Part shown: positions 21,877-33,506 of the stretch, in pieces | How the letters are laid out: every line of letters starts with the position of its first letter | Numbering within the stretch: the first letter of the stretch is position 1 | NCBI GenBank assembly: GCA_951813575.1 | Contig: OX638375.1 | Location: forward strand, 4,008,752 to 4,072,751 | Direction of reading: 5' to 3' | Source of the DNA: Candidatus Binatia bacterium | GTDB lineage: Bacteria > Desulfobacterota > Binatia > UBA9968 > JAJDTQ01 | Length of the DNA: 64,000 nt | Made by a program: the position numbers and the translations under genes | Notes under the pieces: model-generated | Told to the model about the DNA's origin: nothing | The model's input: only the letters and a program-made list of their open reading frames with translations | Databases searched by the model: none

Positions 21877-22752
21877 TTACGGCCTCCCCGGATCCTCGTA
21901 GTAGTGCTGGTAGTACCAGTCCGCGATTTCTCCGCCGGTGGCCAGCCACACGCCGTCGTGGGAGCAGATGTATTCCAGCGCGAGGTCGAGGTACTTGATG
22001 CGGAGGGGGACGCCGATGATGAAGGGGTGCAGGGGGATGCACAAGACCGTGCCGCTGCGTTCGCCGTCCCGGTAGAGCACGTCGAACTGGTCGCAGACCT
22101 GCTGCAGATACTCCCCGGGGGTGTAGTTGGAGCGCAGGAAGAAGTTGATGTCGTTGAGGCCCTGCTCGTAGGGCACGACGATCAGGCGGCCGGTCTTGAC
22201 CCGCATGGCCACGGGCTGGTCGTCGAAGCCCCAGTCGCAGAGGTAGTCGAAGCCCGCCGCCGCCAGGTGGTCGGGGGTGTCGAAGGTTTCGGCCAACGCG
22301 GGTCCGAGCCAACCCCGCGGCGCCTTGCCGGTGCCCGCGGCGATCTCGTCGCGTACCTGCCGTATGACGGAGAACTCGTCGCCGGCGGGATAGGCGGTCA
22401 GGGGAAGGTTGTTGGTGACGCCGTGGCCCAGCCACTCCCAGTCCCGCTTCATGCCTTCCTCGATGATCTCCCGGTGGTGGATGCAACACTCGGAGTTCAA
22501 CTGGGCGCTGGCGCGGATGCCGTACTTGTCCAGCACCTCCATCATCCTGAAGACGCCCACCCGCGCGCCGTAGTCGCGCTGGGAGTAGCTGCGCACGTCC
22601 GGGACCTGGGACATGCCGAAGTTGGGGATGGGCTGGTCGATGTGGAAGTACTCGATGTTGGGGCTCACCCAAACGGCGATCCTGGCATCGTCGGGCCATC
22701 TGAGCGCGGGCCGTGCGGTGATCGGCTGGTAGTTGTAGCGGCGGTTCTCCAT
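21877..22752 (-). CDS. Polysaccharide deacetylase family protein (copy 1)
   Basis: A 291-residue member of the NodB-fold hydrolases, of the allantoinase/PuuE-like branch. Seen are RIAVWVSPNIEYFHID at the start, a central ECCIHHREIIEEGMKRDWEWLGHGVTNN (the strand where NodB proteins have their metal-binding His), GWLGPALAETFDTPDHLAAAGFDYLCDW, and IPLHPFIIGVP followed by ICSHDGVWLATGGEIADWYY. It is cytosolic (no signal peptide). The start ATG 22752 has AGGA 6 bases upstream. A paralogue with the same landmarks lies at 27155-28033 on the same strand. Between them are nitronate monooxygenase, HyuB fusion and enoyl-CoA hydratase genes, suggesting amide or ring-opening chemistry rather than polysaccharide work. 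Confidence 0.85.
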   Translation of the reverse strand: MENRRYNYQPITARPALRWPDDARIAVWVSPNIEYFHIDQPIPNFGMSQVPDVRSYSQRDYGARVGVFRMMEVLDKYGIRASAQLNSECCIHHREIIEEGMKRDWEWLGHGVTNNLPLTAYPAGDEFSVIRQVRDEIAAGTGKAPRGWLGPALAETFDTPDHLAAAGFDYLCDWGFDDQPVAMRVKTGRLIVVPYEQGLNDINFFLRSNYTPGEYLQQVCDQFDVLYRDGERSGTVLCIPLHPFIIGVPLRIKYLDLALEYICSHDGVWLATGGEIADWYYQHYYEDPGRP

Positions 22753-22918: not shown

Positions 22919-24049
22919 ATGGCCAAACTGAAGACTGCTTTGTGCGACATGCTCGGCATCGAGCACCCAATCATCCAGGCGGGCATGGGCTGGGACAGCC
23001 GAGGCTCCACGACCCCGCCCAGGCTGGTGGCGGCGGTGTCCGACGCCGGCGGCCTGGGGGTCATCGGCGGAAGCCCGCTCCAGCCGGAGTTCATCCGGGA
23101 GCGCATCCGCGCCACCCGAGAGCTGACGGACCGGCCCTTCGGCGTGGACATTACGCTGCCGCGGCTGGCGCAGACGCCCTACGCCGACGTCGGCAACGTC
23201 CGGGAATTCCTGGAGCACACCCATCCCGATCACGTGAGCTTCGTGCGCGACGCCATCGAGGAGTTCGGGCTGGAGACCCAGGGTCCGGACCCGTGGTCCA
23301 AGGTCAAGACCCCGGACATGGTGCAGCGCCAGTTGGACGTGATCCTGGAAGAGGGGGTCAGGGTGCTGGCGGTGGGGCTCGGCGATACCGCCCAGGTGGT
23401 GCCCCTGGCCCATGAGCGGGGGATGAAGGTGCTGGCCCTGTGCGGCAACGTGAAGCAGGCGGTGGGGCACGCGGCCAACGGCGTGGACGTGGTCATCGCC
23501 CAGGGCTACGAGGCCGGCGGCCACACCGGAAGGATCGCCAACTTCCCGCTGATACCGCAGGTGGTGGACGCGGTGAAGCCCACACCCGTGGTGGTGGCTG
23601 GCGGCATCGCCGACGGCCGGGGCCTGGCGGCGGCGCTGAGCCTCGGCGCCGTGGGGGTATGGTGCGGCACGGTCTTCCTGGCCAGCGCGGAGAGCGAGAT
23701 CCACGCCGACTACAAGACCCAGCTCATCCAGGGCCGCACCGAGGACTTCGTGCTCGACCGCTTTCCCAGCGGCAAGCCCAGCCGCCACTACCGCAGCCCG
23801 GTGATCCGCAAGTGGGAGGAATCGGGCCTGCAGCCGCTGGAGATGCCGTTCCAGGGGGTGCTCAACGACCAGTTCCGGGTGGCCGCGGAGAGCGGCAGCC
23901 GGGTGGACGTCATGAGCGTCCCGGGCGGACAGATCGCCGGGCTGCTGGGCGAGAACGACGTGCGGCCCGCGGCCGAGATCGTTGAGGGCATGGTCGCCCA
24001 GGCGGTGGAGGTGCTGAAGGCGGCGGCTTCGCTCGCCGCGGCTGATTGA
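22919..24049 (+). CDS. Nitronate monooxygenase family protein
   Basis: A 376-residue FMN-dependent TIM barrel of the nitronate monooxygenase/2-nitropropane dioxygenase family. It opens with CDMLGIEHPIIQAGMGW, carries SDAGGLGVIGG, and has the conserved catalytic-loop segment AQGYEAGGHTGR, with the His that deprotonates substrate. The phosphate-binding PVVVAGGIADGRGLAAALSLGAVGVWCGTVFL is near residue 235-270. NMOs oxidise alkyl nitronates; many homologues have other enone-reducing roles. GGAG lies 6 bases before the ATG. The HyuB fusion gene follows after 29 bases and is likely co-transcribed. Confidence 0.88.
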   Translation: MAKLKTALCDMLGIEHPIIQAGMGWDSRGSTTPPRLVAAVSDAGGLGVIGGSPLQPEFIRERIRATRELTDRPFGVDITLPRLAQTPYADVGNVREFLEHTHPDHVSFVRDAIEEFGLETQGPDPWSKVKTPDMVQRQLDVILEEGVRVLAVGLGDTAQVVPLAHERGMKVLALCGNVKQAVGHAANGVDVVIAQGYEAGGHTGRIANFPLIPQVVDAVKPTPVVVAGGIADGRGLAAALSLGAVGVWCGTVFLASAESEIHADYKTQLIQGRTEDFVLDRFPSGKPSRHYRSPVIRKWEESGLQPLEMPFQGVLNDQFRVAAESGSRVDVMSVPGGQIAGLLGENDVRPAAEIVEGMVAQAVEVLKAAASLAAAD

Positions 24050-24078: not shown

Positions 24079-26301
24079 ATGGTTATCGATCCCGTCAGGT
24101 ATGAAGTCTTTCTGCACCGGCTTTGGGCCATCGGCGAGGAAGGGCGCCAGACCCTCCAGCGGGTCACGGCCTCGCCCATCGTGGCCCAGGGCGGCGAGGT
24201 CATGAGCTCCTTCTACGATACCGAGGGCAAGATGGTGCTGGCCTGCTCGGGCCACCTGCGGTTCGCCGGCGCCACCTCCGACGCCATCAAGTACCTCATC
24301 GAGTGGTACGGCAAGTCGCCGGGCTTCTTCGACGGCGACCAGATCTTCTTCAACGACCCCTACGTGGCGGGCTCCCACACCTACGACATGATGGTCATCA
24401 AGCCCATCTTCCACCAGGGCGAGCTCATCGCCTGGACCGCCACCAGCACCCACACCGCCGATACCGGCGGGCTGCTCCGGGGGGCCGCTTCCGAGATCTT
24501 CCACGAGGGAATCCGCATCCTCGGCGTCAAGGTGGTGGAGAAGGGCGAGTTCCGCGAGGACATCTTCAGGACCCTCACCGAGCAGTGCCGCGACCCGCAG
24601 TACGTGGGCCTGGACGTGAAGGCCATGATCGCCGGCAACAACGTGTGCGGCAAGCGCTACCTGGAGTTGGTGGAGAAGTTCGGCCCGGAGTTCCTCGATG
24701 CCGCGGGTCAGAAAACCATCGCCGACTCGGAGGAGATGGCGCGGGCCAAACTCCGCTCCCTGCCCGACGGCCAGTGGGTGTCGCGCCTCTACAGCACGGC
24801 CCTCAACAAGCAGACCAACACGGCCATGCCCATCCAGATCGTGTGCACCGCCACCAAGGAAGGAGAACACCTCAAGCTGGACTTCGCCGGCAGCAGCCCG
24901 CAGATGGCCAACGACGCCAACTCCACGCTTCCCAGCACCTTCGCCCACGTGGGCGTGGCCCTCACCAACACGCTGTTCTGGGACGTGCCCTGGAGCGACG
25001 GCAAGCTGGCGCCGGTGGAGGTATCCGTGCCCGAGGGCACGGTGCTCAACTGCGTGTTCCCGGCCGCGTGCGGCTTCGCGCCCTGGGTCGGCGAGAAGCT
25101 CGTGGCCGCGGTGGTGGAGTGCATGTCCAAGATACTCTATGCCGCCGGCCGGCCGCAGGACGTCAACGCGAGCTGGAACAGCATGTGGACCGCCGGCGGG
25201 CCGGGGTACTTCCCCGGCGGCACCAACCGCGAGGGCATCCGCACCGCCCAGGGCATCTACGACATCCACGGCGGCGGCCTGGGCGCCGCGCCGCACCGGG
25301 ACGGGGTCAACACCGGCGGCCACATGAACATCCCGTCCGGCGGCATCAGCGACGTGGAGCGCATCGAAATGCAGTACCCGCTGCTCTACTTCACCCGCAA
25401 CCACAACATGGACGGGCCGGGCGCGGGCAAGTACCGCGGCGGCCTCGGCAGCTTCCGCCTCACCATGGTGTACGGCTCCCGGGACTTCACCAACGACTAC
25501 AAACCCTACGGCGGCATCCCCCAGAAGGCCTTCGGCCTGTTCGGCGGCTATCCGGTGGGCAGCGGCGCGATCCGCGCCATCTTCAACCCGGCGGAGGACG
25601 TGTGGGAGCGCATGAAGGCCGGCGACTATCCGACGCATCCCGCGCAGGTGGCGGCGGAGGGCTGGGGCGAGGCGCATATCCCGGAGGGCACGCCGGAACG
25701 GCTGTCGGTGCCGGAGTTCAGCCTGATGTCGGACTTCACCGCCTGCGGCGGCGGTTTCGGCGATCCCCTGGAACGAGAGCCGGAACGGGTGGCCCGGGAT
25801 GTGCGCATCCGCGCCGTGTCCAGGGAGACCGCGGAACGCATCTACGGCGTCGTCCTTGACGGCGAGGCTCTGTCCGTGGACGCCTCCGGCACCGAGGAAA
25901 GGCGCCGGCAGATACGCGCCGCCCGCCTCTCCGACGGCACGCTGCTGGCCCCGCCCCGGCTCGGCAACGGCGGCCGTGACTGGCAGCCGTCCCTCCGCTT
26001 CCACGAGTACCTGGAAATCGTCTCGGACGCGTCCGGCGAACGGGCGGTCCGCTGCATCGCCTGCGGCTACCTGTTCTGCCGCCCGGACGAGAACTACAAG
26101 AAGCACAGCGTCCGGCTGTTGGTGGACCCGGAGGAGCTTTCGGGCACCAGGCTTCCGTCCGACGAGGACTACCTCGGCCGCTTCCACATGTACGCGTGTC
26201 CCGGATGCGCCACCCTGCTCCAGGTCGACGTCTACTGCCCGGCCCTGGGCGGCGAGGAAGACCTCATGGATATCCGGGTCGCCGGCAACGGGGAGGGCTG
26301 A
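24079..26301 (+). CDS. Hydantoinase B/oxoprolinase protein fused to an acetone-carboxylase-gamma-like zinc domain
   Basis: A 740-residue two-part protein. Residues about 1-575 are a HyuB/AcxB-type domain: GGEVMSSFYDTEGKMVLA, DQIFFNDPYVAGSHTYDMMV, STHTADTGG, then GGFGDPLEREPERVARD at its end. Residues about 610-740 form a small domain with two cysteine pairs, CIACG and CPGC, plus HEYLEIV, like the zinc-binding gamma subunit of acetone/acetophenone carboxylases. In those complexes a HyuA-like subunit performs the ATP step, but no HyuA gene is found in this window. The ATG at 24079 has GAGGAC 7 bases upstream. The reaction is uncertain: ATP-dependent carboxylation or amide hydrolysis are the family options. 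Confidence 0.84.
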   Translation: MVIDPVRYEVFLHRLWAIGEEGRQTLQRVTASPIVAQGGEVMSSFYDTEGKMVLACSGHLRFAGATSDAIKYLIEWYGKSPGFFDGDQIFFNDPYVAGSHTYDMMVIKPIFHQGELIAWTATSTHTADTGGLLRGAASEIFHEGIRILGVKVVEKGEFREDIFRTLTEQCRDPQYVGLDVKAMIAGNNVCGKRYLELVEKFGPEFLDAAGQKTIADSEEMARAKLRSLPDGQWVSRLYSTALNKQTNTAMPIQIVCTATKEGEHLKLDFAGSSPQMANDANSTLPSTFAHVGVALTNTLFWDVPWSDGKLAPVEVSVPEGTVLNCVFPAACGFAPWVGEKLVAAVVECMSKILYAAGRPQDVNASWNSMWTAGGPGYFPGGTNREGIRTAQGIYDIHGGGLGAAPHRDGVNTGGHMNIPSGGISDVERIEMQYPLLYFTRNHNMDGPGAGKYRGGLGSFRLTMVYGSRDFTNDYKPYGGIPQKAFGLFGGYPVGSGAIRAIFNPAEDVWERMKAGDYPTHPAQVAAEGWGEAHIPEGTPERLSVPEFSLMSDFTACGGGFGDPLEREPERVARDVRIRAVSRETAERIYGVVLDGEALSVDASGTEERRRQIRAARLSDGTLLAPPRLGNGGRDWQPSLRFHEYLEIVSDASGERAVRCIACGYLFCRPDENYKKHSVRLLVDPEELSGTRLPSDEDYLGRFHMYACPGCATLLQVDVYCPALGGEEDLMDIRVAGNGEG

Positions 26302-26319: not shown

Positions 26320-27132
26320 TCAGGTATCGGAGCGCCGGTAGCCGGTATTGGTGCCGCCGCTCTGGGACCGGAGATACTCCTCCACGTCCGAGAACGAATC
26401 CATCATCAACTGCTGGCGCGCGGCCACGAGCTGGTCTGTGCGCAGGGCCTGGGACAGGGGGAGGTCCTTGCCCACCTGCACCGCGATCTTGGCGCAGGCC
26501 AGGGCCGCCGGGTGGCGCGTGCCGATCTCCCCAGCGAGTTGGAGGGTCACTTCCTCGACCTCGGCCTCTGGCACCGACGCCGATACCAGCCCGAAACGGT
26601 CCGCCTCGGCGCCGGAGAAATTCCGACCGCTGAAATGCATCAGGGCCGCCTTCTTCGCGGTTATCCCGGTGTGATAGAGGGAGCTCAAGGCCATCTGCCC
26701 GAAGCTGCCGCGCAGGATCTCGGGCATGCCGATCTTGGCGGTATCCGCCGCGATGGCGATGTCGTGGGCGGTCATGAGCGCCATGCCGCCGCCCAGGCAG
26801 TGGCCGTGCACCTGGGCGATGGTGACCTTGGGGTAGTTCCGAAAGCTCTCGTAGAACATGAGGTTTGGGTGGGAACGGTCCCAATCCCGCGGCGGTTCCG
26901 CATGGATGGCCCGGAGGTCGTGCAGGTCCGCGCCGGCGCAGTAGCAGGGTCCGTTCCCCCGAGTGATGACGACGCGGACCTCGGGGTCCGCGCGGACCGT
27001 CTCGAGGGCGTCGAGAATCTCGCCGGTTAGCACCCGGTTGAGGGCGTTGCGCTTCTCGGGCCGGTTGAAGTTGAGCCGCACCACGCCGTCGGCCGGCCGT
27101 TCCAGCACCAGCGTCGACCACTCCTTTGCCAT
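26320..27132 (-). CDS. Enoyl-CoA hydratase/isomerase family protein
   Basis: A 270-residue crotonase-fold protein. Landmarks are the N-terminal LNFNRPEKRNALN, the oxyanion segment CYCAGADLHDL, the second oxyanion loop HGHCLGGGMALMTAHDIAIA and GMPEILRGSFGQMALSSL. At the catalytic Glu positions of enoyl-CoA hydratase, PEILRGS supplies one candidate Glu while the other is not obvious. It could therefore be a hydratase, isomerase or other crotonase. It is convergent with the HyuB fusion, and 22 bases separate it from the second deacetylase gene downstream of which it lies; these two probably share a transcript. Confidence 0.87.
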   Translation of the reverse strand: MAKEWSTLVLERPADGVVRLNFNRPEKRNALNRVLTGEILDALETVRADPEVRVVITRGNGPCYCAGADLHDLRAIHAEPPRDWDRSHPNLMFYESFRNYPKVTIAQVHGHCLGGGMALMTAHDIAIAADTAKIGMPEILRGSFGQMALSSLYHTGITAKKAALMHFSGRNFSGAEADRFGLVSASVPEAEVEEVTLQLAGEIGTRHPAALACAKIAVQVGKDLPLSQALRTDQLVAARQQLMMDSFSDVEEYLRSQSGGTNTGYRRSDT

Positions 27133-27154: not shown

Positions 27155-28033
27155 CTAGTCGTCCGGTTTCTCCGGAGCCTTGTAGTAGCGCTGGTAGTAC
27201 CAGTCGGCGATGTCGCCGGCCGTAGTCTTCCAGACGCCGTCGTGGGAGCAGATGTAGTCGAGGGCCCGGTCCAGGGCGCCGATGCGAAAGGGCATGGCGG
27301 TCACGTACGGGTGTAGCGGGATGCACATCACTCGTCCGCCGTCGGCCCCCTCCCGGTACAGGGTGTCGAACTGGTCGCAGACGATCCGGTAGTAGTCCGC
27401 CGGCGTGTGGTTGGCGTGGACGAACATGGAGATGTCGTTGATCCCCTGCTGGTAAGGCACCGTGATCATCCGCCCGGCCTCCACCCGCATGGTCACCGGC
27501 TGGTCGTCGTGGCCCCAGTCGCACACGTACTCGAACCCCTCCGCGGCCAGGAAGTCCGGCGTGTCGTAGGTCTCCGAGAGCCCCGGTCCCAGCCAGCCCT
27601 TGGGCGCCTTGCCGGTGGCGTGGGCGATGATGTCGCGCACCTTGCGTATCACCTTGCGCTGCTTCTTGGCGCCGTAGCTGTTCATCCGGGTGTTGTTGTT
27701 CATGCCGTGGCCCAGCCACTCCCACGACCGCTTGTTGCCCTCCTCGATGATGGCCGGGTGCTGGTTGCACACCTCGGCGTTGAGCAGCACGCTGGCGCGC
27801 ATGTCGTAGCGGTCGAACACCTCCATCATGCGGAAAATACCCACCCGGGAGCCGTAGTCCCGGAGCGTGTAGGACTGCACGTCCGGCAACGGCTCCGGGA
27901 CCCTCGGCAGGGCCTTGTCGATGTGAAAGCACTCGATGTTGGGGCCCAGCCAGAGCGCCACCCGCGCTCCGCCCGGCCACTCCAGCCGCGGCCGGTGGAT
28001 GATCGGACTGTAGTCGTAGCGTGTGCTGAACAT
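27155..28033 (-). CDS. Polysaccharide deacetylase family protein (copy 2)
   Basis: A 292-residue paralogue of the protein at 21877-22752, with matching landmarks: RVALWLGPNIECFHID, RDYGSRVGIFRMMEV, SWEWLGHGMNNN, GWLGPGLSETYDTPDFLAAEG, IPLHPYVTAMP and ICSHDGVWKTTAGDIADWYY. The start ATG 28033 has GGAGG 8 bases upstream, so nine upstream in-frame codons are not needed. The pair differ in middle segments, pointing to an old duplication rather than a recent copy. It is the first gene of a transcript that probably continues into the enoyl-CoA hydratase. Confidence 0.85.
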   Translation of the reverse strand: MFSTRYDYSPIIHRPRLEWPGGARVALWLGPNIECFHIDKALPRVPEPLPDVQSYTLRDYGSRVGIFRMMEVFDRYDMRASVLLNAEVCNQHPAIIEEGNKRSWEWLGHGMNNNTRMNSYGAKKQRKVIRKVRDIIAHATGKAPKGWLGPGLSETYDTPDFLAAEGFEYVCDWGHDDQPVTMRVEAGRMITVPYQQGINDISMFVHANHTPADYYRIVCDQFDTLYREGADGGRVMCIPLHPYVTAMPFRIGALDRALDYICSHDGVWKTTAGDIADWYYQRYYKAPEKPDD

Positions 28034-31417: not shown

Positions 31418-33506
31418 GTGGACCGTCCACCCGTCATCGAAGTGGAGGACGTCACCAAGGTCTACGATCTTGGCGAGCAGAAAGTGGAAGCGCTCAAGGG
31501 CGTCTCGCTCACGGTCTTCGAGGGCGAGATCGTGTCGCTCATGGGGCCTTCCGGTTCCGGCAAGTCCACCCTCATGAACCTGCTGGGGTTTCTGGACCGG
31601 CCGACCTCGGGCTGCTATCGCTTGAACGGTACGGACGTGGGCGAGCTCTCGTCCGACGAGATGGCGTGGGTCCGCAACCACGACATCGGTTTCGTCTTTC
31701 AGAACTACAACCTGCTGGCCCGCACCACGTCCCTCGAGAACGCCGAGCTGCCGGCCCTCTACAACGGAACATCGTCGTCGGCGGGGCGCCGCAAGGCGCG
31801 GGAGATGCTGGCGCTGGTGGGCCTCAGCGAGCGGGAAGCGCACCGGCCCACCCAGTTGTCCGGCGGCCAGCAGCAGCGGGTGGCCATCGCCCGGGCGCTG
31901 CTCAACGATCCCCGCCTCATCCTGGCCGACGAACCCACCGGCAACCTCGACACCCGCACCGGCGCGGAAATCATCGATCTCTTCAAGACGCTCAACCGGG
32001 AGAAGGGCATCACCATCGTCTTCGTTACCCATGATCCCGAGGTGGCCTCCCACGGGCAGCGCATCATTCACTTCAAGGATGGTCTCGTGGAACGGGAGGA
32101 GGCCGGGGGAAGGACCGCGTCAGCCATCTCCGCGTCCTCTCCGGAGGACGGCGCCGGCGCCTCGGGCGAGGGGGCATCGGGCGGCGGCGTCAACGACGAC
32201 GGCAACAACGGCAACGGCGTCTCCAACGGCAACGGTCACGGCGGCGACAACGGCAACGGCGGCGGAGGCCCCCGCCGCCGGGGCCTGGGTGCCGGCATCC
32301 GGGCCAACGTCCGCATTGCGCTGCGGGCGATAAGGGTGAACAAGCTCCGGTCCGCGTTGACCATGCTGGGGGTCATCATCGGCGTCGGCGCGGTGATCGC
32401 CATGGTGGCCATCGGCGAGGGGGCCAAGGCCAGGGTCGCCAAGCAGATGGAGCGTCTCGGTAGCAACCGCGTGTCGGTCTATGCCGGAACGGTGACCCGC
32501 GGCGGCCGTCGTGTGCGGGGCGCGCGGATCACGACGCTCACCGCGGCGGACGCCAGGGCCATCCTCGCGGAGGTGCCGGGAGTGGTCCGGGTCGCGCCCC
32601 ATGTCCGGGGCTCTGCCCAGGTGGTTTACGGCAACAAGAACTGGCATCCGCCCTTCACCGGCACCACCCCGGACTACCTCCGTATCATGAACTGGCGTCG
32701 ACTCGGGGTCCAACTTCACCGAAGACGACATGCTCCTGAACCGTAAGGTGGCCCTGATCGGGAAGACCGTGGGCAAGGAGCTCTTCGGCGACGACTATCC
32801 GATAGGGCAGACCATAAGGGGCAAGCACATCCCCTTCGAGGTGGTGGGCGTGCTCAAGGAGCGGGGGACCTCCTCGTGGGCCGGCGACCTCGACGACATC
32901 GTCATCGTCCCGCTGCAAACGGCGCAGCGGAAGCTTCTGGGGATTCGTTACGTGCGCGGCATCGAGGTCAGCGCCGAGAGCCAGCAGGCCACGTCCGACG
33001 TGCAGGACGGCATCGCCGCTCTGTTGAGGGTGCGCCACAAGATCACCGGCACCAAGCTGGACGACTTCCGGGTCCGCAACCGCACCGACATCCTCGAGGC
33101 GGCCAACGAGGCCGCCAGCACCCTGGGCTACCTCCTGGCCGGCATCGCCGGGGTGGCGCTCATCGTCGGCGGCATCGGCATCATGAACATCATGCTGGTG
33201 TCGGTGACCGAGCGCACCCGGGAGATCGGCGTGCGGCTGGCCATCGGAGCGAGGCGCCGTGACATCCGCCGCCAGTTCCTCACCGAGGCCATGGTCCTGA
33301 GCCTCCTGGGGGGCGCCGTGGGCATCCTCGCCGGCGCCGCCGCGTCCTTGGGGCTCTCCTACATGGGCGGCTGGCAGATCGTCATCTCCCCCGGCGCGAT
33401 CCTGCTGGCCTTCGCCTTCGCCGCCGCCATCGGCGTCTTCTTCGGCTTCCAGCCCGCCAACCGCGCCGCGGGGCTCAATCCCATCGAAGCATTGCGCTAC
33501 GAGTAG
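31418..33506 (+). pseudogene. macB: MacB-type ABC exporter, split by a frameshift
   Basis: ATPase plus permease of a MacAB-like exporter. The ATPase domain (31418 to about 32100) has Walker A GPSGSGKST, LSGGQQQRVAIARALL, DEPTGNL and the H-loop VTHDPEVA. A Gly/Asn-rich linker of about 50 residues leads into the first membrane helix (SALTMLGVIIGVGAVIAMV). Near 32690-32700 the frame changes by +1: the first frame ends 16 codons later at 32746, and the other continues GSNFTEDDMLLNRKVALIG to the end, with the last three helices and the closing GLNPIEALRYE. The two halves meet without loss of recognisable MacB sequence, so one extra base (or two lost) explains it. A sequencing error or a programmed shift are alternatives. 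Confidence 0.85.

Follow-up and report, generated by a model that had tools for sequence, protein, structure and literature searches.

To our knowledge, biotin-free ketone carboxylases are few and are known as complexes of fixed partners. Section 7 of Weidenweber et al. (PMC5214803) gives the gene orders hydAB, acxABC and apcABCD(E) for the superfamily and states that the gamma subunit is absent from hydantoinases. In the alpha subunit of Xanthobacter acetone carboxylase (XaAC), the metal ligands are the gating Glu89, His150, Asp153 and His175, as set out in the relevant part of PMC5543143. Acetophenone carboxylase (Apc) and the caprolactamase subunit CapB have Asp at the first, gating ligand position, according to the corresponding part of PMC8453981. 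No description of a HyuB–gamma fusion, of HyuB without HyuA or of HyuA sharing was found in the open-licence PMC literature.

The locus described here lies in a 64-kb window (the whole stretch of DNA that was analysed) of a Candidatus Binatia genome. Its central gene joins the counterparts of two of these subunits in one chain:

24079–26301, plus strand: fused HyuB–gamma (carboxylase beta–gamma) gene, from the ATG at 24079 to the stop at 26301, 740 aa
24088–25767, plus strand: HyuB part, residues 4–563 (PF02538, Hydantoinase_B, E 2.1e-103; VIA-align with 5l9w_A and 5svb_A)
24196–24198, plus strand: codon of Glu40, aligned with the gating ligand Glu89 of XaAC alpha
24376–24453, plus strand: H100, D103 and H125, aligned with H150, D153 and H175 of XaAC alpha
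25999–26283, plus strand: gamma-like zinc-ribbon domain, about residues 641–735 (PF08882, profile search, Foldseek)
26053–26208, plus strand: Cys659, Cys662, Cys707 and Cys710, predicted zinc ligands, invariant in 52 of 52 alignment rows

An alternative TTG start is possible 33 bp 5' of the ATG. The sequence-only reading had proposed HyuB fused to an acetone-carboxylase-gamma-like zinc domain, and the fusion is confirmed, the two parts being subunits of a probable ketone-carboxylating enzyme. The single-sequence Pfam match to Acetone_carb_G (residues 643–721) is weak at 24.5 bits versus a cut-off of 21, yet a profile of the C-terminal domains of nine family members matches acetone carboxylase gamma (5m45_C, E 1.7e-9) and the small Apc subunit (5l9w_C, E 2.6e-7), which makes the gamma assignment firm. 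The C-terminal piece, whose possible unrelatedness to gamma had been raised against the proposal, is thus a gamma relative. An AlphaFold2 model of the 740-aa protein based on 52 aligned sequences has a pTM of 0.90 and a mean pLDDT of 86, and Foldseek finds the acetone carboxylase alpha and gamma chains (5m45_A, E 1.4e-45; 5m45_C, E 3.1e-5) and both Apc counterparts within this one model. VIA-align gives Z 29.6 over 616 residues with 5l9w_A and Z 27.8 over 614 with 5svb_A. Scores fall below the curated cut-offs of the NCBIfam Apc equivalog ApcD (NF042976; 222.6 bits versus 1500) and of the CapB model (179.9 versus 1000). A chance fusion or frame artefact was rejected in view of purifying selection (see below), orthologues and the fold model.

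Compared with acetone carboxylase (AcxABC; 5svb, 5svc, 5m45), the window protein has the same HyuB fold (Z ~27–28, 26–27% identity), a Glu-His-Asp-His metal site including the Glu gate, and a gamma zinc domain with four Cys; it differs in that beta and gamma form one chain with no adjacent HyuA, the acxABC order and a separate gamma gene being absent, and in that the N-terminal extension of XaAC alpha is missing (residue 4 aligns with XaAC alpha 53). The acetophenone carboxylase core (ApcABCD of Aromatoleum; 5l9w) is the best full-chain structural match and has a CxxC...CxxC gamma, but Apc has two ATPase subunits, a separate gamma and Asp65 at the gate. Caprolactamase CapAB and the ATP-dependent hydantoinases have the two-part HyuA/HyuB mechanism and the metal ligands in common with the window protein, but have no gamma, and Asp instead of Glu40 at the gate. 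Fused HyuB–gamma with an adjacent HyuA is found in cultured Halorientalis and Rhodococcus; these Halorientalis and Rhodococcus plasmid fusions have the identical domain order and a similar length, but their identity is ~28–31% over the alignment and their HyuA lies directly upstream. Haloterrigena has a split version of the fusion.

The metal tetrad was examined in a family alignment of 52 rows (52 of 53 references; L104, frame-broken at its end, was left out), in which E40, D103 and H125 are present in 52 of 52 rows and H100 in 51. Among the 20 HyuBs of the genome, Glu occupies the gate position in five, exactly those of the fused-module family, and Asp in the other 15 of 15. By these residues the acceptor site is intact, and of acetone-carboxylase type at the gate. 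The exchange of Glu for Asp concerns a single residue and may not predict carboxylation. Two HyuBs of the genome have an altered tetrad, with Gln at the H100 position and Asn at the D103 position (L120, genome 2235636–2237381; L122, genome 1100531–1102258). The four predicted zinc ligands correspond to Cys22, Cys25, Cys75 and Cys78 of Apc, as given in the passage of PMC5214803 on these cysteines. The window protein has one further conserved cysteine, C667; Gly takes its place in 11 of the 52 rows and also in L029_08 from the same genome, which makes a role as zinc ligand improbable.

The neighbours of the fused gene are as follows:

21877–22752, minus strand: second PuuE-like protein (placed in BLAST cluster c13 together with the 27155–28033 protein; clustering only)
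22949–24049, plus strand: NMO/FabK-type FMN protein (PF03060, E 8e-59), 29 bp 5' of the fused gene
26320–27132, minus strand: crotonase-superfamily protein, convergent with the fused gene (PF00378, E 3e-44)
27155–28033, minus strand: PuuE-like deacetylase-fold protein (3cl6_A, E 6e-26; TIGR03212, 124 bits versus a cut-off of 425)

The nitronate monooxygenase, deacetylase-fold and crotonase neighbours named by the sequence-only reading are therefore present, the second PuuE-like protein by clustering; a Pfam search gave no match for it. The NMO/FabK-type gene is probably co-transcribed with the fused gene; its product is found beside the fused gene in two orthologous loci and is 91–95% conserved, and the crotonase gene is retained at both. 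Deducing a substrate from these neighbours was tried and rejected, as the NMO, crotonase and PuuE-like genes point to no single pathway. The CoA-transferase and thiolase genes found near other family members are absent from the window locus. The claim that no HyuA lies near also held: none was detected in the 64-kb window (tblastn with 19 HyuA proteins, E 1e-20). A HyuA just beyond the window edge was likewise rejected, since the nearest is ~67 kb from the fused gene (genome 4101976–4104075) and near its own HyuB.

The fusion is not unique to the window locus, as was at one point considered: the fused family is broad and widespread in Binatia, Chloroflexota and Actinomycetota, under the database label 'hydantoinase B/oxoprolinase family protein'. 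Relatives from named records are 94% and 88% identical (Deltaproteobacteria bacterium APA_bin_73; an uncultured Candidatus Binatia bacterium). Pfam gamma matches number 94 across 97 related genomes, and 61 of them fall within open frames of 560 aa or more, the pattern that a fusion would give. Thus the earlier view of beta and gamma as normally separate subunits is right in recognising a fusion here, but such fusions are common in the order.

A scan of named genomes gave 65 loci, and after removal of matches shorter than 1900 bases or below 50% identity 60 rows remained, including the window and its own genome's loci L029–L032. In a tree of 59 family rows and two outgroup rows (L094_10001, 337 aa, being left out), 31 rows are paired, with HyuA within 2.6 kb, 14 are orphan, and 14 are unclear because of too little flank or a HyuA at 4–6 kb. 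The window lineage joins a second orphan lineage (support 100/93), and the sister group of the two is a clade with all 16 of its rows paired (100/95). The window gene is an orphan paralogue of the fused family. At least eight changes of the paired label are required on the tree, suggesting repeated losses (or gains) of an adjacent HyuA. The objection foreseen to the idea of a missing partner, that relatives would carry a HyuA next to the gene, holds for the paired homologues of ~56–64% identity and not for strict orthologues: in L050 the 10 kb to each side contain no HyuA, and the short flanks of L049 (2.3 and 1.8 kb) contain none either. L067 and L094 each have a single HyuA flanked by two fused modules on the same strand, the first L094 module being interrupted.

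Within 8 kb of the 31 paired rows, genes for CoA-transferase III (14 rows), thiolase (14), citrate-synthase-like proteins (12) and DUF35-type OB proteins (11) recur, and 24 rows have one or more of the CoA-transferase III, thiolase and citrate-synthase-like genes; behind the Rhodococcus fused module come genes for a CoA transferase and an enoyl-CoA hydratase. This CoA-gene neighbourhood fits ketone carboxylation, CoA activation and cleavage, in that presumed order.

The genome contains 15 HyuA, 20 HyuB and seven Pfam gamma domains, six of the latter in long HyuB frames. No HyuA is without a nearby HyuB; the widest spacing within a pair is 2.1 kb (3256729/3260603). Of the five spare HyuBs, 1760117 is a tandem copy, and the other four are fused modules (the window gene, 1220433, 2134980 and 4115351). 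The fused-module family thus numbers five HyuBs, four of them without a HyuA partner; the fifth module (3493454) lies directly behind HyuA 3491269–3493377, the only cognate HyuA of the family in the genome, and is 61% identical to the window protein. The sequence-only reading had suggested a distant HyuA or a new reaction: the genome search supplies one cognate candidate among the 15, which we infer to act in trans, and nothing found argues for a new reaction. The same genome also has a classic three-part HyuA–HyuB–gamma locus (L117, 3895207–3899982), with the gamma-like domain in a 269-aa ORF, and two tandem HyuA–HyuB pairs (L118, 3955986–3964396), the second followed by an 83-aa gamma-like ORF that was found by a custom profile and missed by the Pfam search.

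The one-to-many pattern recurs in other genomes. With cognate HyuA defined by at least 64% identity (range 64–100%; the next HyuA class is at most 45%), the family occurs in 28 of 35 genomes of the order (G000–G034), and a cognate HyuA in 25 of these, always exactly one. Fourteen of the 25 have at least two module rows, with up to five fused modules per genome; row counts include contig fragments, and copy numbers in fragmented MAGs may be too high. The three genomes with the family and no cognate HyuA (G006, 76% complete; G014, 93%; G028, 80%) agree with the 2.7 expected from incompleteness. Among genomes at least 95% complete, the cognate HyuA is present in 12 of 12 with the family and 0 of 5 without it; this association is partly automatic, because a paired operon supplies both genes in most genomes, and orphan presence alone offers few contrasts at that completeness. 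Outside Binatia, one HyuA accompanies three modules in a SAR202 genome and two modules in G098. In G104, a Chloroflexota MAG, two modules occur and no HyuA exceeds 45% identity; these modules and that of G014, all without cognate HyuA, count against sharing.

Orphan modules remain constrained. The window gene is under purifying selection (dN 0.030 and dS 0.243 versus its 94% orthologue, L049), with dN/dS of ~0.12 and ~0.17 versus its two orthologues; the corresponding values for the paired copy versus its own two orthologues are ~0.05 and ~0.10. The dS versus L049 is uneven, rising from 0.13 in the first 560 codons to 0.65 in the last 100, perhaps from recombination or gene conversion. The window protein retains 170 of 174 sites invariant across 28 paired rows, the exceptions being C41V, M352I, Y379P and G483K (in this comparison, 4 of 52 rows lacked a paired/orphan label: two orphan, one paired and one unknown). 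The predicted HyuA-contact helices, model helices 5–29 and 173–201, were mapped by correspondence with the CapA-contact helices of CapB. The ratio of identity to paired rows in these helices to that in the rest of HyuB is 1.20 (SD 0.08) for 11 orphans and 1.13 (SD 0.04) for 29 paired copies, all 52 rows being labelled; as far as the modelled helices represent the contact, there is no sign of relaxation in orphans, and their conservation may have other causes.

The one-to-many counts, the tree, the kept invariant sites, the unrelaxed contact helices, the Glu gate and the CoA-gene neighbours together point to sharing in trans. The best reading is that the orphans are interchangeable carboxylase modules that would borrow one HyuA; we infer the trans use, the ketone carboxylation, the substrate and the later steps. 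With a probability of about 0.6, the window module is part of a ketone carboxylase whose HyuA-type ATPase comes from another locus, most likely that of the single cognate HyuA, 3491269–3493377. The one-chain module would provide the acceptor-site HyuB and the structural zinc gamma of a biotin-free, ATP-dependent enzyme. By analogy with acetone carboxylase, HyuA would phosphorylate the ketone enol(ate) and bicarbonate, a tunnel would lead the intermediates to the metal site E40/H100/D103/H125, and the C–C bond would form there. The resulting beta-keto acid might next be turned into a CoA ester, which would be cleaved. A wider form of this reading has about an even chance of being right: one HyuA would serve up to five fused modules in a combinatorial system, each module being set in a separate catabolic cluster that has a monooxygenase or CoA enzymes of its own, a state reached several times independently by losing HyuA adjacency.

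We know of no earlier one-to-many subunit-sharing system in the hydantoinase/ketone carboxylase superfamily. In mycobacterial and actinobacterial acyl-CoA carboxylases, the AccA3 alpha subunit is common to several AccD; there too one activating subunit meets several acceptor modules, but these are biotin enzymes made of unrelated proteins. What makes the present case notable is the one-to-many pattern more than the fusion.

An orphan module might instead work without any HyuA: its metal site would take a substrate activated by other means, such as the neighbouring FMN enzyme, and have decarboxylase, hydrolase or lyase activity. The lack of a HyuA near the gene in the window or within 10 kb on each side in L050, the conserved neighbours (NMO and crotonase), and the age of the orphan clades, maintained under purifying selection, agree with this, as do the window lineage's C41V and Y379P at sites invariant in paired copies. 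It is nevertheless unlikely, given the conserved HyuA-contact helices and Glu gate and the cognate HyuA in 25 of 28 family genomes; moreover, we know of no HyuA-free member of the superfamily.

Pairing with a non-cognate HyuA of the genome (the 42–44% identical class), such as those near genome 4102000–4110000, is similarly improbable. Several other HyuAs are available, and another orphan module has a HyuA/HyuB pair 5.5 kb away, but each such HyuA is already near its own Asp-gate HyuB, and G003 and G007, of the same genus, have many such HyuAs but neither cognate HyuA nor family module.

A role of the module with its HyuA as an ATP-dependent lactamase or hydantoinase, with cyclic amides as substrates, is very doubtful: PuuE-like (allantoinase-like) genes flank both sides, and HyuA/HyuB enzymes include hydantoinases and caprolactamase in the account given in part of PMC8453981, but gamma is stated to be absent from hydantoinase complexes in the cited section of PMC5214803, the remaining 15 HyuBs of the genome all carry Asp at the position of the fused family's Glu, and CoA-transferase and thiolase genes accompany the wider family.

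Should the preferred reading hold, with one ATPase activating several carboxylase modules, annotation that requires an adjacent HyuA would miss many enzymes, and Binatia and some Chloroflexota would hold an expandable toolkit for carboxylating inert ketones. An engineering principle would also be suggested, in which the module is swapped while the ATPase stays constant.

Elsewhere in the window, at 31442–33506, a MacB-like exporter is encoded as two overlapping ORFs, the first with the ATPase and half of the core domain and the second with the FtsX part. The exporter cluster of the related genome G001 has a single 677-aa ORF (L034_02), so the window copy looks frame-broken or mis-assembled.
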